From a virus: a stretch of DNA of 64,000 bases. Location: positions 25,219 through 89,218 of IMG/VR virus record IMGVR_UViG_3300037246_000452. The stretch is one strand, 5' to 3'. Every line of letters begins with the position of its first letter. Position 1 is the stretch's first letter. The notes below the pieces were generated by a model. It had not been told where the DNA came from, did not search any database, and was given only the letters and a program-made list of their open reading frames with translations. A program made the position numbers and the translations under genes. Below, piece by piece: positions 530-63,591 of the stretch.

Positions 530-543
530 TGCAGTTAATTGCA
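530..543. repeat. Dispersed 14-bp palindrome, copy 1
   Basis: TGCAGTTAATTGCA, 8 bp upstream of the -35 box of the promoter at 493-521 and directly after the stop codon of the preceding gene (546-890). Confidence 0.85.
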
Positions 544-545
544 AT

Positions 546-890
546 TTATTTCTTGTTGGTGTAATAGTCTCCTGTCTTACGGTTCATCAAGATTGCCTGA
601 TGATATTTCTTAATACGCCTTGCTGCATTCTCCAGCATGTGTGATGGAAAGAAGAACTGCTTATGTCCTTTACTATAGTCTGGGTAGGGTTCCTTAATAT
701 CAAGTCTTATATTCCATCTATACCCATACCTCTTCCTCTCGGGATGATCACCTATCCTACACATCCCAATCCTCGGGTCCGTAAAGCCCATATAACAGCT
801 ACTATTGTTCGTCTGTTTATGTACGTATGTTTCTATCCCTAAGTCCCTCAGATGCTCCCTGAGTCGCTTCATGTGTGCTAATGGTGTCAT
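546..890 (-). CDS. Hypothetical 114-aa basic protein
   Basis: ATG at 890 overlaps the stop of the upstream gene as ATGA, pointing to translational coupling; a second in-frame Met at residue 7 is an alternative start. The protein is rich in Arg, Lys, His and Tyr (GDHPERKRYGYRWNIRLDIK), with a predicted C-terminal helix around residues 85-105. It could bind nucleic acid, but no named family is recognised. Confidence 0.55.
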   Translation of the reverse strand: MTPLAHMKRLREHLRDLGIETYVHKQTNNSSCYMGFTDPRIGMCRIGDHPERKRYGYRWNIRLDIKEPYPDYSKGHKQFFFPSHMLENAARRIKKYHQAILMNRKTGDYYTNKK

Positions 891-1291
891 GGTGCCTGTA
901 GCTTCCTGATCTCTACTGCAAGGTCATGTAAGAAGTCCCTCTCTGCTTGTACAAACGGGATGCAGCACTCTCCCACCTTATCATAAGGGGTTTGCATAAC
1001 TCCATGCTTATTCTCTTGATGTAGTACCCAATCCTTGTAAGGTGTTCCGCCACACCATTGCCGGCCAGTCTTAATTTTTACAGGGCAATACTTACAGGAA
1101 TACTGTCTCTGAGCTCCCCTAGCATAATGTTGTATCGTGAACTGTATACATAGAGGGCAGTTAGCTACTCCATTATCCTCACCCTCTCCTTCTAGTATCT
1201 TATCCCATTTACCTACGGACTCATCCAGTATCCCCAATACTGCCTGTGATGTATCTATTAGGCTTTCGGGCCTGTACCCTTCATTTTCCAC
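887..1291 (-). CDS. Hypothetical zinc-ribbon-like protein, GTG start
   Basis: I place the start at GTG 1291, 5 nt after GGAGG and overlapping the last codons of the upstream gene; a longer form from 1321 would overlap that gene by 41 nt. The 134-residue product carries a CPLC pair and a CKYC pair about 20 residues apart, a probable metal-binding module, then a further Cys pair (GECC) near residue 110. The pattern suggests a small nucleic-acid or protein-binding zinc protein. No specific family is recognised. Confidence 0.55.
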   Translation of the reverse strand: MENEGYRPESLIDTSQAVLGILDESVGKWDKILEGEGEDNGVANCPLCIQFTIQHYARGAQRQYSCKYCPVKIKTGRQWCGGTPYKDWVLHQENKHGVMQTPYDKVGECCIPFVQAERDFLHDLAVEIRKLQAP

Positions 1292-1592
1292 ACTTACCTC
1301 CACATTTGCACTTAGGTTCAATCGATATCGTTATGTCCTTTTCATGGATGTGGAGCCGACAACCTGCATACACTTTATGCTTGTGCCAGAATTTCCGTGC
1401 CCCCAATTCTTTCAACTCTGCCTTGAAGGATTCCTTGGTAGGCCACTCCTTATTTGTGCCTATGTTGGCCTGTTTTATGGCATTAATGCATGCTCCTATT
1501 GCGGCCATGTGGGATAAGGTCACAACCAGTATATGAGCCATACCACTGTGCTCCCCTGTTTGCAGTACTACAAATGCCTTCTTATTTTTCAT
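1281..1592 (-). CDS. Hypothetical 103-aa protein with C-terminal Cys cluster
   Basis: The start chosen is ATG 1592 (MKNKKAFVVLQTG), 5 nt after GGGGAG; an upstream in-frame ATG at 1622 lacks a comparable site. The protein ends in KCKCGGKCGK, a tight four-Cys cluster that could bind metal. A hydrophobic stretch (MAHILVVTLSHMAAIGACI) lies in the first third. Function is unknown. Confidence 0.5.
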   Translation of the reverse strand: MKNKKAFVVLQTGEHSGMAHILVVTLSHMAAIGACINAIKQANIGTNKEWPTKESFKAELKELGARKFWHKHKVYAGCRLHIHEKDITISIEPKCKCGGKCGK

Positions 1593-1743
1593 CTTTTCTC
1601 CCCTGAGTTTTAAGGTCTTCAATAACCTCGTTAATCTCTTGCGTCATACTTTGTATCTCTTCTTCTTTCTCTCCCTCGGTGAGGAAACGATACATCGGAC
1701 TATCGAAATACCTTCTTATGGTATCCTCCACATTCTTTGGCAT
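1582..1743 (-). CDS. Hypothetical 53-aa acidic helical protein
   Basis: This short frame begins with ATG 1743 overlapping the stop of the DUF2958 gene (TAATG), after a GGGGAGG site, and ends 11 nt inside the next gene. It starts MPKNVEDTIRRYFDSPM and is mostly charged helix (EGEKEEEIQ, INEVIEDLK). The tight overlaps on both sides argue it is translated. No family is recognised. Confidence 0.55.
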   Translation of the reverse strand: MPKNVEDTIRRYFDSPMYRFLTEGEKEEEIQSMTQEINEVIEDLKTQGRKDEK

Positions 1744-2087
1744 TATGCTACTATCCTCCCCGCTGCCTTGGCTGTTTCAGTATATTCTGCCATGGTCTTA
1801 TCTAAAGTTATGTACATATCCCTTTCAATAGGTAATCCGAAAGGTGGGAATCTTATTGCCTCAAGTTCTACCCTCGATACATATCCAATTTCCGCACAGC
1901 CTTGCCCCAAATCACATAGGCCAAAGAAGTTTCCTTCTTCTGGGTAGTACTCACTTAGCAACCATGTACATGCCCCGCCCCCAAACAATTTGATTACTGG
2001 TTTAAGGTGTGAGCCGTCCCCTTTCTCCCCGGCTTCAATACCGTTTTTAACAAGTTTCTTTTCTTGTGCTACTGTCATGATTTTCAT
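1743..2087 (-). CDS. DUF2958 domain protein
   Basis: The 114-residue product matches the DUF2958 pattern known from plasmids and phages: KLFGGGACTWLLSEYYPE, then FGLCDLGQGCAEIGYVS, a VELEAIR segment and GLPIERDMYI near residues 85-95. The family is linked to mobile elements and has no established biochemical role. Start is ATG 2087. It lies between the 92-residue gene upstream and the 53-residue gene it overlaps. Confidence 0.8.
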   Translation of the reverse strand: MKIMTVAQEKKLVKNGIEAGEKGDGSHLKPVIKLFGGGACTWLLSEYYPEEGNFFGLCDLGQGCAEIGYVSRVELEAIRFPPFGLPIERDMYITLDKTMAEYTETAKAAGRIVA

Positions 2088-2108
2088 ATTGGCCTCCGGG
2101 GCTTTTGC

Positions 2109-2387
2109 TTACTTTCTAAAATGAAGGTCTGCCCAAGAATTACCGGACATGTCTACTTCCTCATTTAGTAATACCATATCACTCTCGGGAACACAAACTG
2201 AACCGCCCCCTTCACAAAGTATGTTATACCATATTTCTGATTTAGTGGATTCCGGTAATGGTGGCCTCTGCTCCTTAAACCATACATCACCTTCGGAGAA
2301 ACAAGCCTCTTTTTTGAATACTTTGCCTACATGTGAATGCCTCTTTGTTGCTACTGAATCTCCGTGAAAGAATTTTCCGTTGTCCAT
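2109..2387 (-). CDS. Hypothetical 92-aa protein
   Basis: A longer in-frame reading from 2537 is rejected because it would cross the terminator (2481-2514) and the promoter (2439-2467); ATG 2387 (MDNGKFFHGDS) follows GGAGGGCGAC and lies 52 nt downstream of the -10 box. The protein has a basic N-terminal third (SVATKRHSHVGKVFKKE) and a phage-like acidic C-terminal half. Function unknown. Confidence 0.6.
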   Translation of the reverse strand: MDNGKFFHGDSVATKRHSHVGKVFKKEACFSEGDVWFKEQRPPLPESTKSEIWYNILCEGGGSVCVPESDMVLLNEEVDMSGNSWADLHFRK

Positions 2388-2438
2388 GTCGCCCTCCGTG
2401 GCTTTGTTTATTTGTTTTTGTTGATTGTTTATAATGTA

Positions 2439-2522: not shown

Positions 2523-2536
2523 TGCAGTTAATTGCA
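2523..2536. repeat. Dispersed 14-bp palindrome, copy 2
   Basis: TGCAGTTAATTGCA between the stop codon of the 2545-2919 gene and its terminator. Confidence 0.85.
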
Positions 2537-5096: not shown

Positions 5097-5290
5097 ACTG
5101 CTACCTCCTCAATTAAGTCCTTCATAGTAGTGCCATTAACTGTATGTTCAAAGTCTGATAACCTATTTAACAAACATAGTCTCTGGCAGTCCTCCTCCTT
5201 ATCCCCCTTCGATGGCATGTTCTCTGTAATAAGAGTCTGTATCTCTTCGATTCTGTTTTCTAATGAATGGATTAAGTCTGGTAGTTCCAT
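5093..5290 (-). CDS. Hypothetical 65-aa helical protein
   Basis: Predicted almost entirely helical with heptad-like hydrophobic spacing in MELPDLIHSLENRIEEIQ, so a short coiled coil is likely. Starts at ATG 5290 sharing one base with the upstream stop. No family is recognised. Confidence 0.5.
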   Translation of the reverse strand: MELPDLIHSLENRIEEIQTLITENMPSKGDKEEDCQRLCLLNRLSDFEHTVNGTTMKDLIEEVAV

Positions 5291-5998: not shown

Positions 5999-6054
5999 TT
6001 CGCCCTCCATGGCTTTGGTTGTTGATTTGTTTTATTAATTTTTGATTATACGTA

Positions 6055-6083
6055 ATTATAACTTATTGGTTTTAGTTTGTCAA
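6055..6083 (-). promoter_or_regulatory. Consensus sigma70 promoter
   Basis: TTGACA (6083-6078), 17-bp spacer, TATAAT (6060-6055). It starts the run of coupled genes from 5998 downward. Confidence 0.9.
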
Positions 6084-6085
6084 GT

Positions 6086-6508
6086 TTATTTGCAGTTAAT
6101 TGCAATTAATAATCTCTTAATAAGACCTTCCTTCCATAGAGTACATTCGGAGTGGTACTCAGGTATAGGACTACCCTCTAGGTATCGATCTAGTGGCGTA
6201 TCATAGTTTGGATAGCCACTGCATACCTCAGGCCTGTCCTTGTGGATGCTACACCCCTCCTTGCTTCTCCTGAGACAAGTAAAGTACGCTGTTGGCCCAG
6301 TAGCCTCTCGGGCTGTCAGTAGGTAAGGATTTAATCTCTGGGCTGTCTCCTCAGGTATCATCACCCAGTTTTCTTGAATGAATAACATATCCCCACTTGC
6401 ACCATTATTCTTATCCATAAACCATCGAGCTTGATGCTCCCCGGTGAGGCGGATTACCTCGCAGCATTTGGTACACCTCTTACCTTCTATTATACAATGT
6501 TCACTCAT
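6086..6508 (-). CDS. YkgJ-family cysteine cluster protein
   Basis: The cysteine layout matches the YkgJ family of zinc/iron-chelating proteins (PF03692-like): CTKCC near residues 12-16, then CLRR...GCSIHKDRPEVCSGYP around 78-99, and a later ECTLW. These proteins probably bind an iron or zinc centre; a few relatives are oxidoreductase or methylase partners. Length (140) is normal. The gene overlaps the next upstream gene by 4 nt, and its last codons form a copy of the dispersed palindrome. The substrate is unknown. Confidence 0.75.
   Translation of the reverse strand: MSEHCIIEGKRCTKCCEVIRLTGEHQARWFMDKNNGASGDMLFIQENWVMIPEETAQRLNPYLLTAREATGPTAYFTCLRRSKEGCSIHKDRPEVCSGYPNYDTPLDRYLEGSPIPEYHSECTLWKEGLIKRLLIAINCK
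6091..6104. repeat. Dispersed 14-bp palindrome, copy 3
   Basis: TGCAGTTAATTGCA, 7 bp upstream of the -35 box, and at the same time encoding the last residues (AINCK) of the 6086-6508 gene. Confidence 0.85.
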
Positions 6509-8544: not shown

Positions 8545-8597
8545 GATGGCCTCCTGCCGTTTTGTTTGTTTTTTTTTTTGTTTTTTGATTATAAGTA

Positions 8598-8626
8598 ATT
8601 ATAACTTTTTATAAGTGGTTTGTCAA
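8598..8626 (-). promoter_or_regulatory. Consensus sigma70 promoter, duplicate of 493-521
   Basis: TTGACA (8626-8621), 17-bp spacer and TATAAT (8603-8598). Spacer and upstream palindrome are almost identical to those at 493-543. Confidence 0.9.
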
Positions 8627-8634
8627 GGATTAAA

Positions 8635-8648
8635 TGCAGTTAATTGCA
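8635..8648. repeat. Dispersed 14-bp palindrome, copy 4
   Basis: TGCAGTTAATTGCA, 8 bp upstream of the -35 box. Confidence 0.85.
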
Positions 8649-8800: not shown

Positions 8801-9019
8801 TTAGTTATAATACTCGTTCCATGTCCTTGCCTTAATACGCCTCACGACTACTTTACAAAAATCACAGTTAGCTTCTGCGGGGCATAAGTCTGCCGGGTCT
8901 ACATGTACTATCTTAAAACCCGCTGTCTTACAAATATTACCATGAGTTACCTCAACCACTTTGGCCTCTTTCTTATCGGGGTCATACGTTACCAAGTTCA
9001 CCTTCCTTCTCATACCCAT
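8801..9019 (-). CDS. Small Cys-containing protein, paralogue of 63335-63559
   Basis: ATG 9019 (MGMRRKVNLVTYDPDKK) lies after GGAGGAAGTT. The 72-residue protein has the block HVDPADLCPAEANCDFCK (four potential ligands in CPAEANCDFC) shared with a second copy near the other end of the window. At DNA level 8851-8910 is identical over 60 bp to 63391-63450. It follows the terminase gene directly. A metal-binding role is possible; function unknown. Confidence 0.6.
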   Translation of the reverse strand: MGMRRKVNLVTYDPDKKEAKVVEVTHGNICKTAGFKIVHVDPADLCPAEANCDFCKVVVRRIKARTWNEYYN

Positions 9020-9032
9020 AACTTCCTCCTTA

Positions 9033-9046
9033 TGCAATTAAGTGCA
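9033..9046. repeat. Dispersed 14-bp palindrome, copy 5
   Basis: TGCAATTAAGTGCA, in the gap between the terminase stop and the ribosome site of the next gene. Confidence 0.75.
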
Positions 9047-9048
9047 AC

Positions 9049-10986
9049 CTATTCATCCTCACCCTCTTCCATGTCCTCTACTTCCGCTGCTTTCATGTTG
9101 TCCTTCTTAACCATCTCTATTACTGAGTTCGGTATCTGAGATGGGTTTAGCTTATGCCTTATCCATAGCTCAGTCCTCATCGTAAGTCCATATACAACAC
9201 CGGCCACAGCATCGGCCACATCGTTACTACCGTTTGGTGGATGATCTATCTTTCCGGTCTTAGGGTCTTTCTCAAGAGAGACAAATTCCTTCCGTAGCTT
9301 ATCATGCCGGGGGATTATTAACCTTCTATCATAGAGTGCTGTCTTCGTCATATAGTAAGGCGCTGACGGTACTGAATCAATCGATTGCTGGCCGGTTATG
9401 AATCCCTTCTGTCTGAGTATTTGCTGAGAGTCCCTAGACTGGTACTGGTCAAAGCTTACCCACTGGATATTGAGTCCGAGTTGTTTCAGTTTATACAGCA
9501 TAGCCCTGATCTTTCCGAATATAATCTCACCGTTCTTTGGTGGACTTACCTCCAGAGTGCCATCCAAATGTATCTCTGGCAGTATCTCTTCAACATCCCC
9601 TCGATCTATATTCACAAACCTCTTTACATGGCCTATAGCTATACCCGCACTGTCTCCTGTCACTGCAAGGTCGATATGCACCCAGCGAGGCTCATCAGGT
9701 CTTACAAACATATCTGGGAGCAGACTTAGCTTGACGTTCTTGAAGTCCACCTTCTCATTATTAAAGATGGAATATATCTCATCTGACATGGCCTCACTAA
9801 CAGCTTCAGTCTCCAGTATAAACGGATGCCTTGCAAGGGTGGATACTCCCGCAATCTCTCGAAGGGCATCAATAATGTCTGTCTCAAATTCGGGCTTGAA
9901 CTCTATCGGAATATCCTTGACTAACTCCGCGTCATCCTCATGTACTTCCTCCCCTTCCTCAAGCATTCTGGGCTTTCTGGCATCATCTCCTATAAATACT
10001 CTAAACCATATCCCTAGAAAGTCATCTGGCTTAATATCCCACACTCTTTTATCATAAACGTATATCTGGGATGTCCCCTTCTCAGCTACTTCCTTATCCC
10101 TCTCCGCCTCTTTTATGTCTGTGAACTGTCCCGGGTACCTCTTCGATGAGACTAGACAAAGGATGCCGGGGAGTTTACCTGCCTTCAGGAAACGTGACTT
10201 CCTTCTACGTGCAATGGAGTTATACACTGCTACGGCCTGATCATATGTTCCTCCATCAACACTTGCCTTCGAGTTCTCCGTTACTGACATGTAGTTCAGT
10301 TCATCTATCAGTCCCCCGATAACATTCTGTCCAATGGCTGCTGAGTCCGAACCTGATACAGGCTTGACTATAATTCTATTCGGAAACCTCATCTCTGACT
10401 CCAGATTCCTGTCGAAGGGAAACTCATTCTGGAAATAAGGACTCTTCTGAATCATATCCTTGAACCTCATGAAGTCAACCCCCTTAGCCAGTGCTGCCGT
10501 GATACTCTGGAATATAAACTCAATCTCGTGCGATGAGTCCAGCCCAAACTCTGCGTGGGGGTTCCTCATACAAGACAACAGGTACACCTGATAAGCATTG
10601 AGGTATATTGCTATTGTAGTTTTAGCTGACCCGATTCCGCCAGTAAGTACTACCTCTATATACTTACCCGAACTCATCTCCTCAATATAATCCATTACAA
10701 TAGGATACACTTCGTTACCTTTGTTCAGAAAGTAAGGGTCTTCTACAAACTGCCTTACTGATACAGGTTGCGTTCTCCATTTGATGTTCTTCTTCATATG
10801 AGCAAACGTATTATTCCCTGCATGTAGGCCGGCCAGATCAAGTACAACACTCTTGAAGAACTTCTCCCTCAGTGCTGGCTTGCCTATCTCCATGCCCACT
10901 TTATATACAGCCTCACCTCTATCTCCCCCTAACGCTTCTATCAGGAATTCCTTTGCATGGGTCTCACTTACTTTCTTAGTTAACAT
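9049..10986 (-). CDS. terL: Terminase large subunit
   Basis: This is the packaging motor ATPase/nuclease that cuts concatemeric DNA and drives it into the prohead. With the start at ATG 10986 (MLTKKVSETH, after GGAGGAGCC) it has 645 residues. Walker A is GGIGSAKTT at about 116-124 and Walker B IGGLIDEL at about 223-230. The RNase H-like nuclease has Asp in HIDLAVTGD (about 439), SFDQY (about 513) and DVADAVAG (about 592). A longer start at 11010 would overlap the upstream gene further. Residues about 314-382 are repeated as a separate small gene at 63076-63324. The gene overlaps the probable small subunit by 11 nt. Confidence 0.93.
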   Translation of the reverse strand: MLTKKVSETHAKEFLIEALGGDRGEAVYKVGMEIGKPALREKFFKSVVLDLAGLHAGNNTFAHMKKNIKWRTQPVSVRQFVEDPYFLNKGNEVYPIVMDYIEEMSSGKYIEVVLTGGIGSAKTTIAIYLNAYQVYLLSCMRNPHAEFGLDSSHEIEFIFQSITAALAKGVDFMRFKDMIQKSPYFQNEFPFDRNLESEMRFPNRIIVKPVSGSDSAAIGQNVIGGLIDELNYMSVTENSKASVDGGTYDQAVAVYNSIARRRKSRFLKAGKLPGILCLVSSKRYPGQFTDIKEAERDKEVAEKGTSQIYVYDKRVWDIKPDDFLGIWFRVFIGDDARKPRMLEEGEEVHEDDAELVKDIPIEFKPEFETDIIDALREIAGVSTLARHPFILETEAVSEAMSDEIYSIFNNEKVDFKNVKLSLLPDMFVRPDEPRWVHIDLAVTGDSAGIAIGHVKRFVNIDRGDVEEILPEIHLDGTLEVSPPKNGEIIFGKIRAMLYKLKQLGLNIQWVSFDQYQSRDSQQILRQKGFITGQQSIDSVPSAPYYMTKTALYDRRLIIPRHDKLRKEFVSLEKDPKTGKIDHPPNGSNDVADAVAGVVYGLTMRTELWIRHKLNPSQIPNSVIEMVKKDNMKAAEVEDMEEGEDE

Positions 10987-11624: not shown

Positions 11625-12458
11625 TTATCCTCCCATATTCTCTATCGTAGGGTCTACTCCATCCGCCAGCCCAGATATATCTACTTCTTTGGTTACTGAG
11701 AGCAACCTCTCCGACAGAGTGGGGTCATTTGCAATTAGTTGCACAGCTGCGGATAGTATATCATCTATTGACCTACTGTTAGCCTTACACATCTGACCTA
11801 AAGTCCTGAAGCCCTCCCTATCTTTAGCCTTCATCCTTAACCAGATATTCTCCTGCCCGTTGAAGTCAAAAATCATGTAGCCATAGTCCAGTGTATCTCC
11901 GAAGGTACTGAATAGGTGGTTCAACACTTTGCTCAGGTCATCTATAGTCTTGATCTCTTTTGCTGCCTGAGTAAACTCGGCTTGCATCTCCTTGGGAAGA
12001 CTCTTCTTGGTCTGTTTAATCAGTTTAGCAAACTCTGCATCATCTGCAAAACCGAAGGCATCCTGTAATAAGTCTTCTTCATACTTATCCGACACTGACT
12101 GATACATATTCATGAACTTCTCAGGGTCAAGCTTACCCCTGATCATATTCATCCTTACAACTTGAAAGGTCTCAGCATCCCCATCAAAGTTCGGGTCTGT
12201 AATCACCGTGCAGGGCACTGTCTCAAAGTCCAGATACTTAGCGGCCTCCCACCTGTGATGACCACCCACAATACGGTATGTTCCCTCATCAAGAGGTCTT
12301 ACAAAGATGGGGTCTACTATCCCTACCTGTGCATAGTTATCACAGAGCAGATCGAAAGATCGGGCATCCATCTTGTTCGGGTTGTTCTCATTCGGAACCA
12401 ACTGGTCTATAGGTAAGTCCACCCGCTTATGACTCTTTGTTAATTCTTTGGCATCCAT
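11625..12458 (-). CDS. ParB/Srx-domain protein
   Basis: The N-terminal 100 residues carry the ParB fold signature: LPIDQLVPNENNPNKM, then VGIVDPIFVRP, and RIVGGHHRWEAAKYL, the last being the nucleotide-binding GGHHRW motif of ParB-type CTPases. No clear helix-turn-helix follows; the C-terminal two thirds are helical and acidic. Phage ParB-like proteins act as DNA-binding or nuclease factors and often sit near terminase genes. It lies between the PIG-L gene and the probable small terminase with 1-nt gaps. A copy of the dispersed palindrome (11730-11743) is inside it, so this is one candidate for the protein that reads those sites; that is inference. Confidence 0.75.
   Translation of the reverse strand: MDAKELTKSHKRVDLPIDQLVPNENNPNKMDARSFDLLCDNYAQVGIVDPIFVRPLDEGTYRIVGGHHRWEAAKYLDFETVPCTVITDPNFDGDAETFQVVRMNMIRGKLDPEKFMNMYQSVSDKYEEDLLQDAFGFADDAEFAKLIKQTKKSLPKEMQAEFTQAAKEIKTIDDLSKVLNHLFSTFGDTLDYGYMIFDFNGQENIWLRMKAKDREGFRTLGQMCKANSRSIDDILSAAVQLIANDPTLSERLLSVTKEVDISGLADGVDPTIENMGG
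11730..11743. repeat. Dispersed 14-bp palindrome, copy 6
   Basis: TGCAATTAGTTGCA, inside the ParB-like gene. Confidence 0.75.
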
Positions 12459-12459
12459 C

Positions 12460-13110
12460 TTAAACCTCCCTCAAAAAGTTTAATGTATATCCTTCTGCAT
12501 ACTTATGGCCACACTTGGCCCCAATCACTTTATGTACTGCTTCTATGTTTTCCATCGATCTTGGATGAACGCCACTCCTTGCCTCCCTCCGGTACTGCTC
12601 TATTGCAATTAATTTCACCATCAAGTCATTAGCAGTCATAGGGATGAAATAATTGGCACTGGTCGGTATTCCGTCAAACGCATGTGCTTCTAATATCCTG
12701 ACTACTCCCTGTAGGTTAGCAGGTCTTAGTGCTATCTTGCAAGCATGATTTAAAAATTTATGATCTTGGTTCATATCTGAGGCCGAGGGTATTACTACTT
12801 CGTGGGGACTAAAGGTACTTAATACTCCCTCTATCCTCTCCAGTATCTTATAGTAGCCTACTTGTGCCGGCTCTCCCTCGGTCAGGTTCATACATCTATG
12901 CAGCTGATAGCCCAGCTTCTCTTTAGCTTGCATAAAATCCAAGCACTGCTCTGCGTATGATTCATCCACGGTCTCCTTGCCATACTCATACACCCTACCG
13001 TACACTGTGAGTACAAATACTTCCCCGCCCTCACGAATTCTTCTAACAACTAAAGCCCCCGTTGAGAGGGCTTCGTCGTCCATATGTGCTGCTATTATTA
13101 AAGTTCTCAT
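12460..13110 (-). CDS. PIG-L/LmbE-family deacetylase
   Basis: The family removes N-acetyl groups from GlcNAc-type sugars with a zinc ion. Here the zinc motif reads AAHMDDEALSTGA (residues 7-19), a variant of AHPDDE with Met for Pro, and the second site motif is PSASDMNQDHKFLN (about 108-121), giving the conserved D-x-N-x-DH. Length (216) fits single-domain members. The gene lies in a short cluster with a UDP-glucose epimerase and an MgsA-like protein, so it may act on a sugar attached to phage DNA or to a nucleotide sugar; the substrate is not visible from sequence. Confidence 0.82.
   Translation of the reverse strand: MRTLIIAAHMDDEALSTGALVVRRIREGGEVFVLTVYGRVYEYGKETVDESYAEQCLDFMQAKEKLGYQLHRCMNLTEGEPAQVGYYKILERIEGVLSTFSPHEVVIPSASDMNQDHKFLNHACKIALRPANLQGVVRILEAHAFDGIPTSANYFIPMTANDLMVKLIAIEQYRREARSGVHPRSMENIEAVHKVIGAKCGHKYAEGYTLNFLREV
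12604..12617. repeat. Dispersed 14-bp palindrome, copy 7
   Basis: TGCAATTAATTTCA, inside the PIG-L deacetylase gene. Confidence 0.75.
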
Positions 13111-19998: not shown

Positions 19999-20042
19999 AT
20001 TGCCCTCCCTGATTTAGTTATTTATTAATTATTTATACTGTA

Positions 20043-20071: not shown

Positions 20072-20079
20072 GTAAATAT

Positions 20080-48198: not shown

Positions 48199-48212
48199 TG
48201 AAATTAATTGCA
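48199..48212. repeat. Dispersed 14-bp palindrome, copy 21
   Basis: TGAAATTAATTGCA, upstream of the ribosome site of the 47575-48183 gene. Confidence 0.8.
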
Positions 48213-50168: not shown

Positions 50169-53100
50169 CTATAATAAGTATCCATCTAATTGTTTACGTC
50201 CACGCCCTACTATAACGATCTCCTCAGGATTGTTGAATTGCCCTTTTCCATTCCCGAAGCTACCAAAGTTCTTAACGTACTTGGTTACACCGTTCTTAAT
50301 GTAAAAGCCGTTGATTCGATTATTCTTATGATCAACTGAATAAAAATTTGGCCTGTAGTACTCTACTGTTCTCAGGGTAGTCGTAACGCCTGCGGTATTG
50401 GTCACAGTCAATCTCACTAGGTATGTCCCAGAAGAGCTATACACATGGATTGGATTACTCTCATTTGAATACGTCCCATCCCCAAAGTCCCAGAAATACG
50501 TATTAGTCAGTAGGGTTGCATACGGTATATCTGCTACGGTATCCCCTGCATAAACAGTACTTAAAGTCATATTCAAGTCATCTGTAATATCAGCGATACC
50601 ATACTCATCATATCCTGTCCTCTGATAAAGATCAAGGCCACTCTGGGAGCCTCCACTTCTCACAGTTCTTAATGTTGCAGTAGTATTGTCTTGAATCGAT
50701 TCAACTACGTACTCCTCTCCCCCTGCAAGTATAGTCATCAACGGGGAAAGCTCCGTAAGAAATAGCGTCCCAGTTCCTACAAGCTGATCACTGCTAGTAG
50801 TCAGTGCAACAACTCCAGTCCTTACGGTGTAATGCGGAACCCTTATCCTGTCACTGGTGGACAACTCAGAAGTAAAAAGTGTTCCAGTTCCTACTACCAC
50901 CACACTATCATTAATTAAAGCCAGTGTTCCAGTTGCCCCCGTGTAATTAGGCAACTGAGTATTCACAAAGCTTATGGCACCTGCCGGGTCATTCTCAATG
51001 GCAACATAAAATGGAAGTCCAGACTCATCCTCCTCCACATAAGGCTTCGACAACATTAATTTGGTATCACTGATAATACCAAGTACCTTGTATGGTACTC
51101 CATTAATTACAAGACTCATACCCTTTTGTAGGTCCGTGGTAAAGGTCGTTCCAATTCCCACCACAAGAGTACTACCTTGAATAACACTTATAGTCCCGCC
51201 CAAAGCCGTAGACTGACCTAGAGTTGACACACTGGCTGTTACCCCTAACTCGGTCACCCCTAACGTCTTTGTTACAGTCTTGCCATCCTCTGTGGCCTCT
51301 CCTACTGGATATGATAGGGTTGCATTGAAGTCATCTTCTACAGACTCTACCGTATAGAGAAGATCATCAATTGTTATCTCCGTCCCCTGTGTCAGCTCCG
51401 ATACAAATGAGGTTCCTGTTCCTACTATCTGATCACTACCATTGGTTACTGCAACACTTCCAGATACATCTACCTGAATAGTTCTGCCTCCTGTGTATAC
51501 TGTTGTCAAGGTCATCTGCGTTGCGCTTTGTATCGCCTCTACATTGTATTTTACCCCACCAATTACAATCTCGCTCCCGATCTCTAACTGACTTTGAAAG
51601 TCAGTATTGGAGCCTATTACTATATTACTGCCTGCTGCTAACTGCAACGTCCCTATCAGTATAGTGGTTCCAACTCCAGCTGCTACCTCAAAAGCTGCTG
51701 TCTGTATGTCTTCTTCATCGGCAGTTGCTTTCACTGTAATAGTCTGCATGGTAGTTACACTTTCATTATTAACAACTATTGTCACCCGCACAGTATACGT
51801 CCCTGCCTCTGTAAACGTAAAACTAGGACTTGCATCCGTTGACTGAGTTCCAGCTGCCTGTAGGCTGAAGGCTTCTCCGGTGGTATCTACTCCCGCATAT
51901 ACACTGGTTAGGGTCATGTGAGTATCATCTTCAATACTCTCAATTACATAGGTTAATCCGGCTACCTTTATCATCTGACCTACAGTAAATTCCGAGGTAA
52001 ACAGCGTGGAGTCTCCTACCACTTGATCACTTGCCTGCTCCAAGGTCAGGGTTCCGGTCTTGGTGGTTACTGCCCCATCACCAAAATCCCACAAAGCCTC
52101 TCCATCTAAGAGGTCTGACCCATTACCAAAATTAATCGTGGCAGGCACAACCCCATTGGTACTCTCTTCTGGGTAGTTGGTTGCAACAACTCCCCCTACA
52201 ATAGACTCGCCCCCAAACGTCTCAAGTAGCGTAAGGTTAGTGTCATCTTCTATTTCAGCAATCAGGTACAGTGTCCCTTCTAGGTCTAGTAGCATACCCA
52301 CTATCAACTCCGTAGTAAACTTTGTCCCAACACCAACTACATCCTTGCTGCTAGTGGTGATACTCATAGTCCCTGTGAGGACTTTAGTCTTCTGGTACAG
52401 TATCAAGCCCGAATCGGTATCTCCGGGGTAATTTGCAACTAATTGCAAACTCAGATTTGTAGCTATGGAATCTATCACCCCTTCTTCTCCTCCGATCACT
52501 ACAGTCTCACCAACATTCAATTCGGTAGTGAATAAAGTGCCTACTCCTACAACTGACTTTAAGCCATTGGTTACTGATACTGTCCCAGTCATTTCTTTTA
52601 ATCCAGCCAGTACAGGAGCGTTATCACTTGTATTAGGTACAAGGTCAACCGTGTAGTCTGCCCCTATAATTACTATTTGGCTACTGCTGTTAATCCCGTT
52701 TGTTCCTGTGAACTTGGCAGTAGTCTTGAAGTTATCCAGCCCTGAATCTGTGGTATCTCCGTACTTATTCATCAAGGTCATATGCGTATTATCTGCAATG
52801 GTCGATATAATGTACTTAATACCTTCGATCACAATAGCCCCACCCTCTACGTAATCAGTGGTGAAAGTAGTCGTGGTGCCTACAACATCCTTGCTATTCT
52901 GCGTCACCGCAATAGTACCTGTCAGTTTCTCGGTCATACGTATCCCAATCTGCTCACTATGGTTCTGCCCCTTATATACTGTAGCCAAAGTCATATGTGT
53001 GTCGTCAGTAATAGTATCAATGACATACTCAAGCCCTGCAATGATAAGAGTCTCCCCTACTGCCAGTTCCGTAGTAAATGAGGTTCCTGCGCCTACTACT

Positions 53101-54842
53101 GTGTCCTCCCCATAAGTGACTTCAAGCGTACCTGTCATCTTCGGCATAGTGTAGGTAGTTAGGGTTGTTACATATGTGCCTTCATTTGTATATTCGTGAG
53201 TCGGGTTTGCTTCCAAAGATATAGTGCCGTCCCCAAAGTCCCACACTGCCACCTCAAATGTTCCAGAGGTTGTACTGGTAAAATTCACTGCAATAGCATG
53301 GGTAGGAATAACATCTTCTGCATCCACCCCAGCATAATTAGTGGATAAAACTATGTGCGTGTCATCAGTAATGGTATCAATGGTATACGCCACCCCCTCC
53401 AATACGATGGTTTTTCCTTCCTCAAATTCTGTAGTAAAATTCGTACCAAATCCTACAATATTTGCGCTACCGTTGGTTACAGTCACCAACCCTGAGCCGG
53501 CCACAATATTCTTTCCAGATGCCACCTTAACTGCTTTCAGTCCTGAGTCGGTGGTGCCTGCATACGTTGCAGTTAATTTCAAACTCGTGTCACTGATCAC
53601 CTCTTCAATCACATATATAACTCCAGCTATCAGTATTGAATCTCCTAAAGTACATTGCGTGAGGAAAGACGTTCCGTCCCCTGCCACCATGTAGCTCCCA
53701 TTTACCACACTAATAGTCCCAGTCAACTCCACGATGTCATCTATTGTCAGCACCTTATACATGAAGAGTCCTGAATCAGTGCCCCCAGCATAATTAGTAG
53801 TCAAAGTCATATTCGTATCGTCTGCAATAGTATCAATGGTGTATACTTTCTCCCCTATGATAATATACCCTCCTTCAACGTATTCTGTAGTGAAGGCTGT
53901 ATCGGTACCCACCAATGCGGCACTCCCATTTGTAGCTGCAGCTGTACCACTGCCTTTAGCTACAGTCTTGTCAATGCTAATCTCTGCATTAAACGAGGCT
54001 ACTGGGGGTGCTGGTATTGAACATGTAACCGTCAAGTCTGTTGGGTCTGCTGAAACTCCACCTATCCCCTGGTATACCTTAAAGGGCCCTATAAAAGAAC
54101 TAGGCAAATACACCTCACCGTTAACTGCTACCGTCCCTCCACGAAATTGTCCTGAGTAGGCTATAGATTGCACGTAGGCATATGGGCTTGTCTTATTAAA
54201 AATCCTTGTCTCGGATGTTGATGTCCTGATATACAGATACCCCTGATCTACCCCTATAGAAGATACGGAGTCTAGCGTATTAATAGTGGCTACATACACA
54301 TAGGTACTTTGATCGTAGATATATATATTATCGTCCGTAGTATTAGAAATATAGATATAGTCTCCATCTAACGCTATATTTCTAGCTCCATTAGCCGCCC
54401 CTATCGGTGTAAGATTGGTAATAAAGGCAAACGTAGATTTATTATAAATAGCTATTCTGTTATTAGTATTATCCGTTATAAATATTCTTGTATCATCTAC
54501 TTCGATTGTCTCTGGGAAATTGACTGATGGACTAAACTCATCTACCCTCAATCCAGTAGAAATACTATATCTCTGAAGTATATCCCCCCTTAAAACGTAA
54601 ATATAAGTATCATCTACAGCAAAACCATTAATACCTGTTCCTGTAGGGTTACTAAGCGTCAGGCCTCCTTCAGGAGTTCCATCCATTTGATAATAGTGAA
54701 TAGCATAGGGTGAAGATGGAACACCACCTCCATTTATTCCCCAATAGATTCTATCCGCTGTAACAGCTACGCCACCATTAGGGTCAATCTCTTGGGCTAT
54801 AATCCCATGCACGAACTCCCTTTTATAATCAAATAACGCCAT
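50169..54842 (-). CDS. Giant repeat-containing tail protein with propeller and PKD domains, 1557 aa
   Basis: Residues 1-250 form a beta-propeller (IYNKSTFAFITNL, IYIYDQSTYVYVATI blades). From about 290 a unit of roughly 65-75 residues repeats about thirteen times: VVGxGTxFTTEL, a G-x-x-I-x-I-x-G-x-x-Y strand pair, and I-x-DDTHMTLxTxYAGxTDSGL. PKD-type segments with WDFGDG lie near residues 545, 965 and 1475. The C-terminus has one more NHL-like blade (NFGSFGNGKGQFNNP). Probably a tail fibre or tip protein for host adhesion; the repeat DNA is prone to expansion and contraction. Confidence 0.72.
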   Translation of the reverse strand: MALFDYKREFVHGIIAQEIDPNGGVAVTADRIYWGINGGGVPSSPYAIHYYQMDGTPEGGLTLSNPTGTGINGFAVDDTYIYVLRGDILQRYSISTGLRVDEFSPSVNFPETIEVDDTRIFITDNTNNRIAIYNKSTFAFITNLTPIGAANGARNIALDGDYIYISNTTDDNIYIYDQSTYVYVATINTLDSVSSIGVDQGYLYIRTSTSETRIFNKTSPYAYVQSIAYSGQFRGGTVAVNGEVYLPSSFIGPFKVYQGIGGVSADPTDLTVTCSIPAPPVASFNAEISIDKTVAKGSGTAAATNGSAALVGTDTAFTTEYVEGGYIIIGEKVYTIDTIADDTNMTLTTNYAGGTDSGLFMYKVLTIDDIVELTGTISVVNGSYMVAGDGTSFLTQCTLGDSILIAGVIYVIEEVISDTSLKLTATYAGTTDSGLKAVKVASGKNIVAGSGLVTVTNGSANIVGFGTNFTTEFEEGKTIVLEGVAYTIDTITDDTHIVLSTNYAGVDAEDVIPTHAIAVNFTSTTSGTFEVAVWDFGDGTISLEANPTHEYTNEGTYVTTLTTYTMPKMTGTLEVTYGEDTVVGAGTSFTTELAVGETLIIAGLEYVIDTITDDTHMTLATVYKGQNHSEQIGIRMTEKLTGTIAVTQNSKDVVGTTTTFTTDYVEGGAIVIEGIKYIISTIADNTHMTLMNKYGDTTDSGLDNFKTTAKFTGTNGINSSSQIVIIGADYTVDLVPNTSDNAPVLAGLKEMTGTVSVTNGLKSVVGVGTLFTTELNVGETVVIGGEEGVIDSIATNLSLQLVANYPGDTDSGLILYQKTKVLTGTMSITTSSKDVVGVGTKFTTELIVGMLLDLEGTLYLIAEIEDDTNLTLLETFGGESIVGGVVATNYPEESTNGVVPATINFGNGSDLLDGEALWDFGDGAVTTKTGTLTLEQASDQVVGDSTLFTSEFTVGQMIKVAGLTYVIESIEDDTHMTLTSVYAGVDTTGEAFSLQAAGTQSTDASPSFTFTEAGTYTVRVTIVVNNESVTTMQTITVKATADEEDIQTAAFEVAAGVGTTILIGTLQLAAGSNIVIGSNTDFQSQLEIGSEIVIGGVKYNVEAIQSATQMTLTTVYTGGRTIQVDVSGSVAVTNGSDQIVGTGTSFVSELTQGTEITIDDLLYTVESVEDDFNATLSYPVGEATEDGKTVTKTLGVTELGVTASVSTLGQSTALGGTISVIQGSTLVVGIGTTFTTDLQKGMSLVINGVPYKVLGIISDTKLMLSKPYVEEDESGLPFYVAIENDPAGAISFVNTQLPNYTGATGTLALINDSVVVVGTGTLFTSELSTSDRIRVPHYTVRTGVVALTTSSDQLVGTGTLFLTELSPLMTILAGGEEYVVESIQDNTTATLRTVRSGGSQSGLDLYQRTGYDEYGIADITDDLNMTLSTVYAGDTVADIPYATLLTNTYFWDFGDGTYSNESNPIHVYSSSGTYLVRLTVTNTAGVTTTLRTVEYYRPNFYSVDHKNNRINGFYIKNGVTKYVKNFGSFGNGKGQFNNPEEIVIVGRGRKQLDGYLL
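52434..52447. repeat. Dispersed 14-bp palindrome, copy 23
   Basis: TGCAACTAATTGCA, in a repeat unit of the 1557-residue protein gene (encodes LQLVAN). Confidence 0.7.
53568..53581. repeat. Dispersed 14-bp palindrome, copy 24
   Basis: TGCAGTTAATTTCA, in another repeat unit of the same gene (encodes LKLTAT). Confidence 0.7.
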
Positions 54843-54843: not shown

Positions 54844-55779
54844 CTATCCTCCGCATTGTGATTGTACTACATTGGTTGGATTCTCTGAATCATCTTCCCC
54901 TGCATACGCATATACTCTGAAATAATTCACATCCGTTGCCCTGATACCATCTTGAGCATACGTGACTCCGTATTGCTCAACATCTGACCCCACGGTGGCA
55001 ACCTCTACCCAACTATCTGTGCCGTTTGGTGAGCGTTCTATTCTAAAGCCGTCCTCGCTTCCTGAGTTGTCAGTCCACTCCAATAGTATTTCTACATCAA
55101 TATCAACCGTTTGACTTACTGATTCTTTATCAACTGTCAATGTAATGGTATAACTCCCACCATCTGCGTACTGATGATTTGGATGTGTTTCAGTAGATGT
55201 AATTCCGTCCCCAAAATCCCAGAGATATGAACTCTTAGCGTTGGTAGCCTTGTTGGTGCAGTAAACCTTATACCCCCCAACTTCATACTCATAGTCAACA
55301 ACCGTTGGCAGGTCGCTTACAGTTAATTGTAACTCATAAGTATCCTGTACCTTATCTGCTTGGTTGATTGCTGTCACTCGTACTATATAATTCCCCCCAG
55401 ATGAATACGTGTGTTCTGGGTTCTCTTCTGTACTTGTCTCCCCGTCCCCAAACTCCCAGTATAACACGTCATAAATTCCTAAACTTATATTCAAGAATTG
55501 TACAACTCCATCCGTATACTCCGTGTATGCAAAACGAGCTGTTGGCGGTTGCACAGGTGGTATAACAGGTTCCACAGGTGGCCAGTCCCCCGGTTCAATA
55601 GGATACTCTGAAGGCCAGTCATTACCTCCTAAATTTGGAGAGCTACCAATACCGGCAGAACTACTATGAAGTTGTGGTCTCTGGGCTTTACCATCTTTAA
55701 TGCTTAGAGTCCCGTCATCATTCTGCTGAATATTAAGTAATGGCCCTACGTCCTCGTCATACCCATCCCCAAATCCCAT
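54844..55779 (-). CDS. PKD-domain tail protein, 311 aa
   Basis: Start at ATG 55779 (MGFGDGYDEDVGP) after GGGGGAGATTAAA; a longer frame from 55812 overlaps the previous gene. Two PKD domains show YWEFGDGETSTEENPEHTY and YLWDFGDGITSTETHPNHQY (about residues 125 and 195), and an FN3-like end carries WTDNSGSEDGFRIERS. Such Ig-like folds decorate phage tails and bind cell-surface sugars weakly. Confidence 0.7.
   Translation of the reverse strand: MGFGDGYDEDVGPLLNIQQNDDGTLSIKDGKAQRPQLHSSSAGIGSSPNLGGNDWPSEYPIEPGDWPPVEPVIPPVQPPTARFAYTEYTDGVVQFLNISLGIYDVLYWEFGDGETSTEENPEHTYSSGGNYIVRVTAINQADKVQDTYELQLTVSDLPTVVDYEYEVGGYKVYCTNKATNAKSSYLWDFGDGITSTETHPNHQYADGGSYTITLTVDKESVSQTVDIDVEILLEWTDNSGSEDGFRIERSPNGTDSWVEVATVGSDVEQYGVTYAQDGIRATDVNYFRVYAYAGEDDSENPTNVVQSQCGG
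55318..55331. repeat. Dispersed 14-bp palindrome, copy 25 (variant)
   Basis: TACAGTTAATTGTA, symmetrical outer change, inside the PKD protein gene. Confidence 0.5.
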
Positions 55780-55780: not shown

Positions 55781-58582
55781 TTAATCTCCCCCGCTAAACA
55801 TACAAACTCCATTCACCCGATTCACATTTGTACCATTTTTCTGTGGTGGTGTCAACTCCAAACTCTGCGCTCCAGCTAAGTTAAAGGTCATCCATCGCCT
55901 CGCTGCAACCCCCTCATTCTCCAAGTCGGTATAGGGTGGAAACTCCTGATCTGGTGTTACATAATCTGGATGGAGTACCTGAGATGTTATATTCAACTCA
56001 TGGTATACTTTTACCGGAAACACATCGAATCCCACCATTAACATATTAGCTGCTTCTGACGTGAATATCCGAGTAATATGATTATTTTCCTGTTCGAGAT
56101 CATCCCCGTCCTCATTGTACCCTATATTCATATACGGTCCAAGGGCATACATATCAATGTTAGCTATGGGAGCACCTACATATTCCCAACCGGCCACACT
56201 CAACCTATTCTCCCTAATCTCATGCGTATACTCTAGTTGAGTCTTTGTGCCATTAATTGCAATCCAATACTGAACCTCACTTACAATCACTGTCCTTCGC
56301 AACTGGGCATAAAAATACTCAGACACATTAAATACCCGCATAGTCTTGTAGGGTAGCCATTCCATGCTGTGAGACTTATAAACCACCTTCTTATACAGAA
56401 CCATATCAAACTTGTTATCTACGTGAGAATGAAGTATTTGGTAATCTGTTGGTCTAATTAGTATAGGACCATTATGGTCTGCTCGGATACCTGCGTCTAC
56501 ATTCTGCCCGTAAAGCTTAATAACATCCTGCCACCCATCAGAATCTACCTCAACCTCGGATACCATAAGACTTGCCTTCTGCTCCGTGAACTCCGTATCT
56601 TTCTCCTTCCTAACATATGTGATCTTATCTCCCATACAGGTATGGATGAGCACCACATCATTTTTAATATACTCTTGTCCTGACTTGGTGGTATATCCAC
56701 TAAAATCAGTTTCTTTTCCATATAGTGTATTAGCATCAATATTATAGGCCAGCTCAACCTCACTTCTAGTATAGCTTACACCTTCACTTTCCTGCTCCTG
56801 TAACTCAGTATCATACACTCCTGCCGTCATTGGTGTGGCCAGCTTGTTACCCCCCCCATCTTCAAACGTGATAGCTTGTATGAGATTCTGCGTTGCATCG
56901 TTCTCTGGGTCAAACTTCCCCATACCAGCCAGTGCCACAGGAAACTCAGGTGAAGCATTCCCCCCTATGACTGTAGACTTACGTTCAGTGAAGCGAGAAT
57001 TGCCCGTAGTGCCTCCCGGTGTATCTATCGGGGTTGGTAGGTCTCTTTCCTCGGTATATGTCCGTGTGAAGGCATCTCCTCCCTCAGGAATGATTATCTT
57101 GCTGTTCCAGATTAACCCTGCCTTAGGAAATATGTCGGTAAAGGATGCCGTTCTCCAGTTATCTGCTAAGATGATTCCACCCTCGGCCTTAATTGCCTGA
57201 TTCACGGAGATAATACCAGTCTCAGTATACCTGCACACATCAGATGTTGGTTTCATAGCATAAGGACTTTGAGTCAAACTTAACGCTGGAAAAATGAAGT
57301 CATAAGAAAAGCCCCTCCCCGGGATAGACACGCTGGCTGCTATCCATATTTCATCTTCGTTACTCTGGTTGGTCATGAACCGAGCCTTCAGACCCTGCTG
57401 CATCTTCATTGAGATTCCTGTTGCTGTTTCCGGTAGTCCCATCCCCTCAGCAAAGGTATATCTATATTTGAAGTCCGTAAAGTCCGTGTAGCTGGTTCCT
57501 CCCTCTGGTATATCAAGGTCAGTCACTAGGATTGCATACTTCCCATCATCGATTAAGTCCCACCCTCCAAGATCAGTTGTTTCGATCATCTCTCCTTTCT
57601 TCAGGATGTAGTACCGCCTCTCATATTCAAGAGTTGTATCCCCTGAGAAACATACGACTAGAAGGTTACATGGCCTTGGATTAGTCTCAAAACCTATCAC
57701 CTTTGGTATAGGCTGAAACAGTTGAGTTACACTGCCATCGCTCCGGGTTGCTTCAGCTGTCAGAATTCCCTGCTCGAATTGTACAAGTATCCGATCTCCT
57801 ACTGCAAAGGCATCCCCGTCACAATCCATGTAGGTCACCAGCACCCGATTATACACTCTCTGCTGATTACAATTAAGTTGCTGATTCGTGTCTTCTATGT
57901 GGTACAGTTCTTCATCCAATTGGACAGTACAAAGATTACTATCATCCTTAGCAAATGCTATTAAAGTTGCTGCTCTATATATTGGCCTCCATTTCTTCGC
58001 CCCGGGCAGTAGACTCCAGTTGTAGAATACAGCTGCCCCTGTCATAATTGCTGCTGGTACTACCTTTCCATCCGTAACCTGAGTATACTCTGCTACCCCC
58101 TCAACTCCCCCGGGTTTAATCATAATCTCGTGATTATCTTCTCTTGCTATTTCAACTGTCCCGATCTCACCGGCCAAGGCAGTATTATAGTCAGCACACC
58201 ATGCCGTCTTTTCTTCTCCGTCTGCAAGCTCCTTAACCCTCTCTAACCTCTGCTCATACCCAGTAATCTCCAGTTCTATTAAAGCCACATTCCTTGTGGC
58301 TATATCAAGAGCTCTAGTCAGCCCATCTACAGTTGCAGATAATTCCCTAAGTACTTCCAGCGGTTCTTTGGCAACTATAGCAAGATTCAATACAGTAAGC
58401 GCAGCTGTACGCCTATTACGTGTACCTGCAAGCTCATTATCAAAAGCTATATTGGTTTCCCTCAAGACCACAATCCTCTGCTCATATTCAGCGACAAGGG
58501 CTGTTAATATAGCCTCGTCATACACGTACTTAATCTTATATTCCCCTGCACCTAAATTATCAATTATAACACCTTTACCCAT
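55781..58582 (-). CDS. Tail tip structural protein, 933 aa
   Basis: The N-terminus (DNLGAGEYKIKYVYDE) leads into a helical coiled-coil region (residues about 25-130: YEQRIVVLRETNIAFDNEL, EITGYEQRLERVKELAD), followed by beta domains (NRVLVTYMDCDGDAFAVGDRIL, LLVVCFSGD). The helical-then-beta build and the place two genes after the tape measure fit a tail-tip or baseplate hub protein. ATG 58582 follows GGAGGGCAAG. Confidence 0.55.
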   Translation of the reverse strand: MGKGVIIDNLGAGEYKIKYVYDEAILTALVAEYEQRIVVLRETNIAFDNELAGTRNRRTAALTVLNLAIVAKEPLEVLRELSATVDGLTRALDIATRNVALIELEITGYEQRLERVKELADGEEKTAWCADYNTALAGEIGTVEIAREDNHEIMIKPGGVEGVAEYTQVTDGKVVPAAIMTGAAVFYNWSLLPGAKKWRPIYRAATLIAFAKDDSNLCTVQLDEELYHIEDTNQQLNCNQQRVYNRVLVTYMDCDGDAFAVGDRILVQFEQGILTAEATRSDGSVTQLFQPIPKVIGFETNPRPCNLLVVCFSGDTTLEYERRYYILKKGEMIETTDLGGWDLIDDGKYAILVTDLDIPEGGTSYTDFTDFKYRYTFAEGMGLPETATGISMKMQQGLKARFMTNQSNEDEIWIAASVSIPGRGFSYDFIFPALSLTQSPYAMKPTSDVCRYTETGIISVNQAIKAEGGIILADNWRTASFTDIFPKAGLIWNSKIIIPEGGDAFTRTYTEERDLPTPIDTPGGTTGNSRFTERKSTVIGGNASPEFPVALAGMGKFDPENDATQNLIQAITFEDGGGNKLATPMTAGVYDTELQEQESEGVSYTRSEVELAYNIDANTLYGKETDFSGYTTKSGQEYIKNDVVLIHTCMGDKITYVRKEKDTEFTEQKASLMVSEVEVDSDGWQDVIKLYGQNVDAGIRADHNGPILIRPTDYQILHSHVDNKFDMVLYKKVVYKSHSMEWLPYKTMRVFNVSEYFYAQLRRTVIVSEVQYWIAINGTKTQLEYTHEIRENRLSVAGWEYVGAPIANIDMYALGPYMNIGYNEDGDDLEQENNHITRIFTSEAANMLMVGFDVFPVKVYHELNITSQVLHPDYVTPDQEFPPYTDLENEGVAARRWMTFNLAGAQSLELTPPQKNGTNVNRVNGVCMFSGGD
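56248..56261. repeat. Dispersed 14-bp palindrome, copy 26
   Basis: TGCCATTAATTGCA, inside the 933-residue tail gene. Confidence 0.6.
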
Positions 58583-58593: not shown

Positions 58594-58607
58594 TGACATT
58601 AATTGCA
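58594..58607. repeat. Dispersed 14-bp palindrome, copy 27
   Basis: TGACATTAATTGCA, upstream of the ribosome site of the 933-residue tail gene. Confidence 0.65.
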
Positions 58608-63019: not shown

Positions 63020-63035
63020 TTTCTTATCCCCCTTT

Positions 63036-63049
63036 TGAAATTAATTTTA
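63036..63049. repeat. Dispersed 14-bp palindrome, copy 28
   Basis: TGAAATTAATTTTA, just upstream of the tail tube ribosome site. Confidence 0.65.
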
Positions 63050-63075
63050 AACTAACCGTCTTCAACCCCACCCTC

Positions 63076-63324
63076 TTAAGCAACCATCTTCATACTGCTG
63101 TTCTTAACTCCTGCTATATCCCTGAGGGCATTAATAATGTCACGATCAAAATCTAATCGGAATTCCACTGGAACTTGTATAACCAGCCCTGTGTCTCTTA
63201 GAAGTGCATACTCCTTTTTGTTAAGTATTCTTGGCTGCCTAGCCTCATCACCTATAAATACACTAAACCGATCTCCTAAGGAGCCATCGGGTTTAGTGTT
63301 CCATACTCTCGCACCAACCTCCAT
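63076..63324 (-). CDS. Terminase large-subunit fragment (duplicated piece)
   Basis: The 82-residue product aligns with residues about 314-382 of the terminase at 9049-10986: ARVWNTKPDGSLGDRFSVF against KRVWDIKPDDFLGIWFRVF, and FDRDIINALRDIAGV against FETDIIDALREIAGV. It has its own ATG (63324) after GAGGAGATT and no internal stops. It lacks both Walker motifs and the nuclease Asp residues, so it cannot be a terminase by itself; it may be a remnant or a regulatory piece. Confidence 0.8.
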   Translation of the reverse strand: MEVGARVWNTKPDGSLGDRFSVFIGDEARQPRILNKKEYALLRDTGLVIQVPVEFRLDFDRDIINALRDIAGVKNSSMKMVA

Positions 63325-63334
63325 AATCTCCTCC

Positions 63335-63559
63335 TCAGTACCCTTTATAGTATTCGTTCAAGGTTCTACTCCTCACCCTACGCATCACTCCTTTACAAAA
63401 ATCACAGTTAGCTTCTGCGGGGCATAAGTCTGCCGGGTCTACATGTACTAACATAAAGCCCATCGCCTTATCAAAAGTACCATGATGCACCTCGATCACC
63501 CCGGCCTCTTTCTTAATCGGGTCATACGTCACCAAGTTAACCTTCCTTCTCGTATCCAT
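63335..63559 (-). CDS. Small Cys-containing protein, paralogue of 8801-9019
   Basis: MDTRRKVNLVTYDPIKKEAG and the block HVDPADLCPAEANCDFCKG are nearly the same as in the 8801-9019 protein, which follows the true terminase. ATG 63559 lies after AGGAGGAAGTT. The shared 60-bp DNA stretch (63391-63450) indicates a recent copy or ongoing gene conversion. Function unknown. Confidence 0.65.
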   Translation of the reverse strand: MDTRRKVNLVTYDPIKKEAGVIEVHHGTFDKAMGFMLVHVDPADLCPAEANCDFCKGVMRRVRSRTLNEYYKGY

Positions 63560-63577
63560 AACTTCCTCCTATACATT

Positions 63578-63591
63578 TGAAATTAATTTCA
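63578..63591. repeat. Dispersed 14-bp palindrome, copy 29 (perfect, A variant)
   Basis: TGAAATTAATTTCA, fully symmetrical, between the 63594 stop and the next ribosome site. Confidence 0.8.

Follow-up and report, generated by a model that had tools for sequence, protein, structure and literature searches.

Short palindromes repeated throughout a viral genome, inside genes as well as between them, raise the question of what reads them and what the reading achieves. Such a palindrome, 14 bp long, recurs in the stretch of DNA analysed here (the window, 64,000 nucleotides corresponding to bases 25219-89218 of the 89,218-bp IMG/VR virus contig IMGVR_UViG_3300037246_000452, whose called genes are all on the minus strand). 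The answer that we favour, at roughly even odds (a probability of about 0.5), is that the palindromes, taken over the whole genome, are an array of sites bound by a DNA-binding protein of the phage itself, most likely the product of a gene of phrog_17202, a family of unknown function, which would act as master immunity repressor and genome organiser.

An original prediction made from the letters of the window had listed 29 copies of the palindrome and judged them too frequent for chance. All 29 start coordinates proved correct; the consensus that went with them, TG[C/A]AATTAATT[G/T]CA, fits 9 of the 29 sites exactly, whereas the other 20 deviate from it. All 29 lie within three mismatches of TGCAATTAATTGCA, a 14-mer for which no open-access paper containing it was found, and which at this threshold has 35 matches as compared with 4.3 +/- 2.1 in dinucleotide shuffles. 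The most frequent form, absent from the earlier description, is TGCAGTTAATTGCA on the plus strand and hence TGCAATTAACTGCA on the coding strand. Using a weight matrix, 31 sites were scored in the window (the 29 together with 5131 and 14102) and 42 on the whole contig, against 0-5 in the controls, which were Markov sequences and column-permuted matrices. About half of the 31 sites occupy intergenic gaps or the junctions between genes, where many separate a stop codon from the Shine-Dalgarno sequence of the following gene, and the remainder are intragenic; the excess over chance was upheld for these intragenic sites, 19 being observed against a mean of 3.9 (maximum 8) under synonymous codon shuffling. 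The consensus is near-palindromic, with an asymmetry that varies by genome. A uniform orientation with respect to transcription was considered and rejected, as TGCAATTAACTGCA predominates 7:1 in the window yet other genomes vary.

Conservation in related phages was also confirmed, both as arrays and at orthologous intragenic positions. Four IMG/VR contigs, each with many copies, were found by scanning for the motif beside TTGACA, and cultivated relatives were linked by protein searches, the proteins in common with the window phage being mostly 25-56% identical. These relatives include the Vibrio phages KarBoss, LV6, VHS1, SIO-2 and ValSw4_1, Stenotrophomonas phage DLP5, Rhodobacter phages RcZahn and RcKickapoo, Rhizobium phage RHph_TM16 (TM16) and Aeromonas phage HJ05, and an array is present in all those examined. 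Some at first appeared to have none because they carry their own version of the motif, which was found de novo: TGCAATYRATTGCA in DLP5, TGCAATCGATTGCA in RcKickapoo, TGCAATATGTTGCA in TM16 and TGCAACYGGTTGCA in HJ05, with TGCAGATGTCTGCA and TGCAAACGTTTGCA as further variants on contigs. Together, 22 array-bearing records were collected, comprising phages of Vibrio, Stenotrophomonas, Rhodobacter, Rhizobium and Aeromonas, metagenomic contigs (among them a 63% GC IMG/VR contig with 54-59 sites) and a resident Rhizobium plasmid; genome-specific matrices gave 7-59 sites per record as opposed to 0-5 for permuted matrices. Most of these records retain a TGCA-NNNNNN-TGCA frame around a core that is specific to each. 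RcZahn and RcKickapoo infect one host strain (Rhodobacter capsulatus YW1) and have different motifs; the motif follows the phage, not the host.

The plasmid, NZ_CP071625.1, is the 109-kb circular p7 of Rhizobium bangladeshense PLR8-1a, with 57 sites of the TGCAACSSGTTGCA type, and is a member of the group in a resident, extrachromosomal state. Its capsid, tape measure, terminase-like and polymerase genes mark it as a phage genome listed as a plasmid. A scan of bacterial genome contigs found no bacterial relatives. A further relative, L134, has the motif TGACATTAATGTCA, in which the outer TGCA, nearly constant elsewhere, is altered, and its phrog_17202 gene is preceded by a variant altered in the same manner.

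The sites are spread with unusual regularity. The coefficient of variation (CV) of the gaps is 0.28-0.69 across the arrays, compared with about 0.8-1.0 for random placement, and the longest gap is about half of the random expectation in most genomes. This evenness holds when the split between intergenic and intragenic sites is kept (combined Fisher p 2e-41), and also when randomisation is confined to the intragenic sites, the intergenic ones staying in place (p 5e-36), from which it follows that the intragenic sites fill the holes between the intergenic ones. By this sequence evidence, a distance of about 2-5 kb is kept between sites irrespective of genes. In contrast, the stoperators of cluster A phages are uneven, with gap CVs of 1.18 in D29 and 0.92 in Turbido, the two phages used for comparison of spacing and counts.

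When orthologous genes of less than 80% identity were compared in pairs, 45 pairs of sites were separated by no more than three residues, where 4.1 would be expected, although these pairs are not independent events and shared protein constraint in the closer ones may explain part of the number. In some cases the DNA site is kept despite a changed frame or changed residues (genes G000_015 and G006_076 compared with DLP5; G004_092 compared with VHS1 and SIO-2), which argues that selection acts on the DNA, and in TM16 one orthologous site is spelled with the core of that phage.

Promoters are placed at fixed distances from some of the sites. Over the 704 sites of the 22 records, -35-like boxes are most frequent at 8-9 bp downstream; when a -10 box is also required, 31 promoters lie at 8 bp and 16 at 9 bp (47 in the peak), another 10 form a second peak at 18-19 bp, none occurs at 12-14 bp and almost none is found on the opposite side. 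About 8% of sites stand 8-9 bp, or one helical turn more, upstream of a promoter, and the two offsets put the centre of the site at about -51 or -61, on the same face of the helix as RNA polymerase. An element acting as RNA was considered unlikely given this fixed phasing of sites ahead of promoters. The sites of the window with near-perfect promoters are those at 530, 6091, 8635 and 20080. Together, the even spacing, orthologous positions and promoter phasing show that the array is selected as DNA.

The four promoters linked to these sites (480-530, 6040-6091, 8585-8635 and 20030-20080) have in common a TATAATTACNTATAA-like sequence past the -10 box, a hint that another conserved element may be located at the transcription start. 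Outside the window, two array sites precede the head-protease/capsid operon (L001:4994-5700, contig coordinates). The head-protease family has an upstream site in 11 of 16 genomes, the second highest among 29 conserved families, which suggests that a regulated late promoter is conserved there.

The idea of a dispersed array read by a protein, put forward in the original prediction, is strongly supported, with binding itself putative: as in dispersed operator arrays, one type of site is present in many copies and a phage gene has a site at its own promoter. This gene, of phrog_17202, tops the 29 conserved families, with a site upstream in 15 of 20 genomes against 2.2 expected, and the upstream site is each genome's own motif variant. 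A homologue was found in every array-bearing record covering the region (14 in the main presence survey and others beyond it), those of RcKickapoo and HJ05 being recovered with an iterated profile; the searches used a 270-amino-acid form of the protein. At many further IMG/VR loci the phrog_17202 gene often has the local variant of the palindrome, however spelled, no more than about 100 bp away, and on plasmid p7 TGCAACGGGTTGCA stands 8 bp before the TTGACA that precedes its copy.

Structure predictions were made for the window and IMG/VR sequences. The AlphaFold model consists of a disordered Lys/Ala-rich tail, an all-helical domain (residues 34-168), a stretch in extended form that leads into two helices (183-226) and further C-terminal helices. 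The predicted strand-helix-helix has a predicted local distance difference test (pLDDT) score of 94, and segment 183-226 is modelled as a ribbon-helix-helix (RHH)-like domain, which in Foldseek matched many RHH-type folds weakly (the TCP domain, NikR, ParB of pCXC100 and ParD). For the whole protein, neither a significant solved relative nor a Pfam or PDB sequence relative was found. A suggestive trend links residue and motif, His occupying the last strand position with TTAA-centred motifs and other residues with most others; it is confounded by phylogeny and has exceptions. It is the genome context that makes the phrog_17202 protein a strong, and the best, candidate reader, its standing on biochemistry being weak.

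The candidate reader gene and the array sites, each site scored by the weight matrix, are as follows in window coordinates.

19120-19998, minus strand: candidate reader gene, phrog_17202, 292 amino acids from the first ATG
530-543, minus strand: array site 8 bp 5' of the promoter TTGACA (516-521) N17 TATACT (493-498)
2523-2536, minus strand: intergenic array site preceding an intrinsic terminator-like hairpin
5131-5144, minus strand: weak array site, additional to the earlier list
6091-6104, minus strand: array site 7 bp 5' of the promoter TTGACA (6078-6083) N17 TATAAT (6055-6060)
8635-8648, minus strand: array site 8 bp 5' of the promoter TTGACA (8621-8626) N17 TATAAT (8598-8603)
9033-9046, minus strand: array site between a stop codon and a Shine-Dalgarno sequence
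11730-11743, minus strand: intragenic site in the ParB-like gene, with an orthologous site in DLP5 and Rhizobium TM16
12604-12617, minus strand: intragenic array site
14102-14115, minus strand: intragenic array site, additional to the earlier list
15145-15158, minus strand: intragenic array site
19456-19469, minus strand: intragenic array site within the candidate reader gene
20080-20093, minus strand: site within the promoter of the candidate reader gene itself, 8 bp 5' of TTGACA (20066-20071) N17 TATAAT (20043-20048)
21055-21068, minus strand: intergenic array site preceding a Shine-Dalgarno-like sequence
25928-25941, minus strand: array site at a gene junction, preceding the recA-like gene
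27883-27896, minus strand: intragenic site in a helicase gene, with an orthologous site in DLP5
29274-29287, minus strand: intragenic array site in a primase-like gene
33927-33940, minus strand: intragenic array site in a dnaB-like gene
35753-35766, minus strand: intragenic array site
36631-36644, minus strand: intergenic array site
40252-40265, minus strand: array site at a gene junction
43542-43555, minus strand: array site at a gene junction, a perfect palindrome
47508-47521, minus strand: intragenic array site
48199-48212, minus strand: array site at a gene junction
50109-50122, minus strand: intragenic array site of reverse asymmetry
52434-52447, minus strand: intragenic array site in a 4.7-kb gene (50169-54842)
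53568-53581, minus strand: intragenic array site in the same 4.7-kb gene (50169-54842)
55318-55331, minus strand: weak intragenic array site
56248-56261, minus strand: intragenic array site
58594-58607, minus strand: array site at a gene junction
63036-63049, minus strand: weak array site at a gene junction
63578-63591, minus strand: array site at a gene junction

Two of these neighbourhoods have features of their own. The DnaB-like helicase gene (31851-33965) contains an intein with an HNH-type endonuclease (Pfam Intein_splicing and HNH_3). Near the end of the window, an 82-amino-acid open reading frame (63076-63324) matches part of the large terminase family (terminase region 8801-10986) and a small gene (63335-63559) resembles the terminase-adjacent small gene at 8801-9019; the segment 63076-63559 is apparently duplicated, with an array site before the small gene in both copies.

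According to the reading that we favour, a dimer of the phrog_17202 protein would read the palindrome via its RHH-like domain. At promoter-linked sites the protein would contact or block RNA polymerase, and this would set the expression of the early genes, the head operon and phrog_17202 itself, while elsewhere on the genome the bound protein, with its helical domain and basic tail, would silence and organise phage DNA, chiefly as long as the phage persists as an extrachromosomal prophage. Such a state is documented in the group: DLP5 is temperate and replicates as a phagemid (PMC5834331), DLP3 forms lysogens, possibly as a phagemid (PMC7326821), and lysogens of VHS1 hold an extrachromosomal genome and tolerate superinfection (PMC3148565). 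Several observations weigh against this reading. In five of the 20 genomes no site was scored ahead of the phrog_17202 gene, the Foldseek matches to RHH folds fall short of significance (E > 3), and among solved structures no convincing relative of the helical domain was found. Nor did a comparison of whole-protein distance with motif single out phrog_17202, a test weakened by wrong domain choice in several genomes. The promoters themselves point both ways, the near-perfect ones beside sites being suited to repression and the weak ones of contig G004 to activation. Lastly, some Vibrio relatives, such as R21Y, are described as lytic (PMC10671443), and there prophage silencing would not be needed; a role of the array in transcription or DNA organisation during the lytic cycle is therefore possible.

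Other explanations of the array differ in what they leave unaccounted for. Chance, codon bias or a repeated coding motif might be suspected from the Q-L-I-A frequently encoded at intragenic sites, yet this has a negligible likelihood in view of the codon shuffles, the variant motifs, the even spacing and the orthologous sites in shifted frames. It is very unlikely that the reader is the ParB-like protein (11625-12458) or the MerR-like protein (26271-26711), both candidates of the original prediction, or a host protein. The two phage proteins do have ParB_N or MerR-type domains, but their relatives occur in only 6 and 8, respectively, of 16 array-bearing records, and they were rejected on this pattern of presence and absence; the different motifs of two phages infecting a single Rhodobacter strain make a host factor unlikely. 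An array of activator sites, from which the protein would touch RNA polymerase at about -51/-61 while the remaining sites serve as decoys or a titration reservoir, would suit the two phased positions one helical turn apart and the weak -10 boxes in contig G004. It is nevertheless improbable, since about 90% of sites have no adjacent promoter and are still evenly spaced and conserved, and since several of the linked promoters are near-consensus and should need no help.

Strict stoperators, at which a bound repressor forms a roadblock ending transcription across the prophage in the manner of L5 gp71, are an unlikely but closer model. Cluster A phages (L5 gp71/Rep) have about 25 short dispersed sites, one at the promoter of the repressor, with a cognate version for each phage, and the gene-junction sites, the autoregulatory site, the phage-specific motifs and the near-unidirectional genome are all cluster A-like (PMC6550527). 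The stoperator parallel drawn in the original prediction stands in these respects and fails for symmetry, spacing and protein: cluster A sites are asymmetric 13-mers, mostly in one orientation, dense near one genome end and unevenly spaced, whereas here a 14-bp palindrome is evenly spaced with about half of its sites intragenic, the candidate has a predicted RHH-like domain, and relatives show extrachromosomal lysogeny. A partition or chromosome organiser of the MatP/matS, Noc or ParB/parS kind, which would fold, tether or segregate the plasmid prophage or replicating DNA with secondary effects on promoters, is likewise doubtful. MatP/matS and Noc/NBS use dispersed palindromes of 13-14 bp, and in MatP an RHH domain adjoins a helical domain. 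The even, gap-filling spacing regardless of genes, the extrachromosomal maintenance in the group and the RHH-like and helical domains with a basic tail would agree with such a role. However, matS sites and NBS are widely separated on bacterial chromosomes and not phased with promoters, while the fixed -51/-61 geometry and the autoregulatory site here are regulatory features; no MatP or ParB similarity was found in Pfam or PDB searches, nor any match of phrog_17202 to MatP in Foldseek. ParB/parS resembles the array in its palindromic sites and plasmid-prophage context, and some array phages have a ParB_N protein, but the ParB-like protein is absent from many array-bearing genomes, and parS sites are typically few and clustered.

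The general kind of system, dispersed phage operators with a phage-specific version, is already known (PMC6550527; PMC10516654). In Bacillus prophage SPbeta, one phage protein, MrpR, and one repeated element of about 15 bp, SPBRE, keep lysogeny, as proposed here; unlike the present genome-wide array, which includes genes, SPBRE is located in about ten promoter regions, and MrpR resembles tyrosine recombinases (PMC10516654). The open-access literature searched, subscription papers not being searchable, yielded no palindromic array that is evenly spaced and gap-filling, has an RHH-like candidate reader and extends over phages of several proteobacterial genera; the stoperator papers in it deal with other phages. 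It may be, and we suggest this tentatively at somewhat below even odds, that distance-keeping palindrome arrays and a new family combining a helical domain with RHH constitute a new class of genome-organising and silencing system, common to many large siphophages and phage-plasmids, whose specificity diversifies through joint change of the reader and of its dozens of sites across the genome.

Few phages are known to have dispersed operator arrays, and the one described here spans several proteobacterial genera, with variants even within one host strain. A testable reader is named for a protein family of unknown function, and even spacing that is blind to gene boundaries constrains a viral genome strongly and in an unusual way. 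The array raises the question of how dozens of sites, many of them intragenic, switch specificity together, and it may account for repression in those large phages whose lysogens carry them as plasmids.

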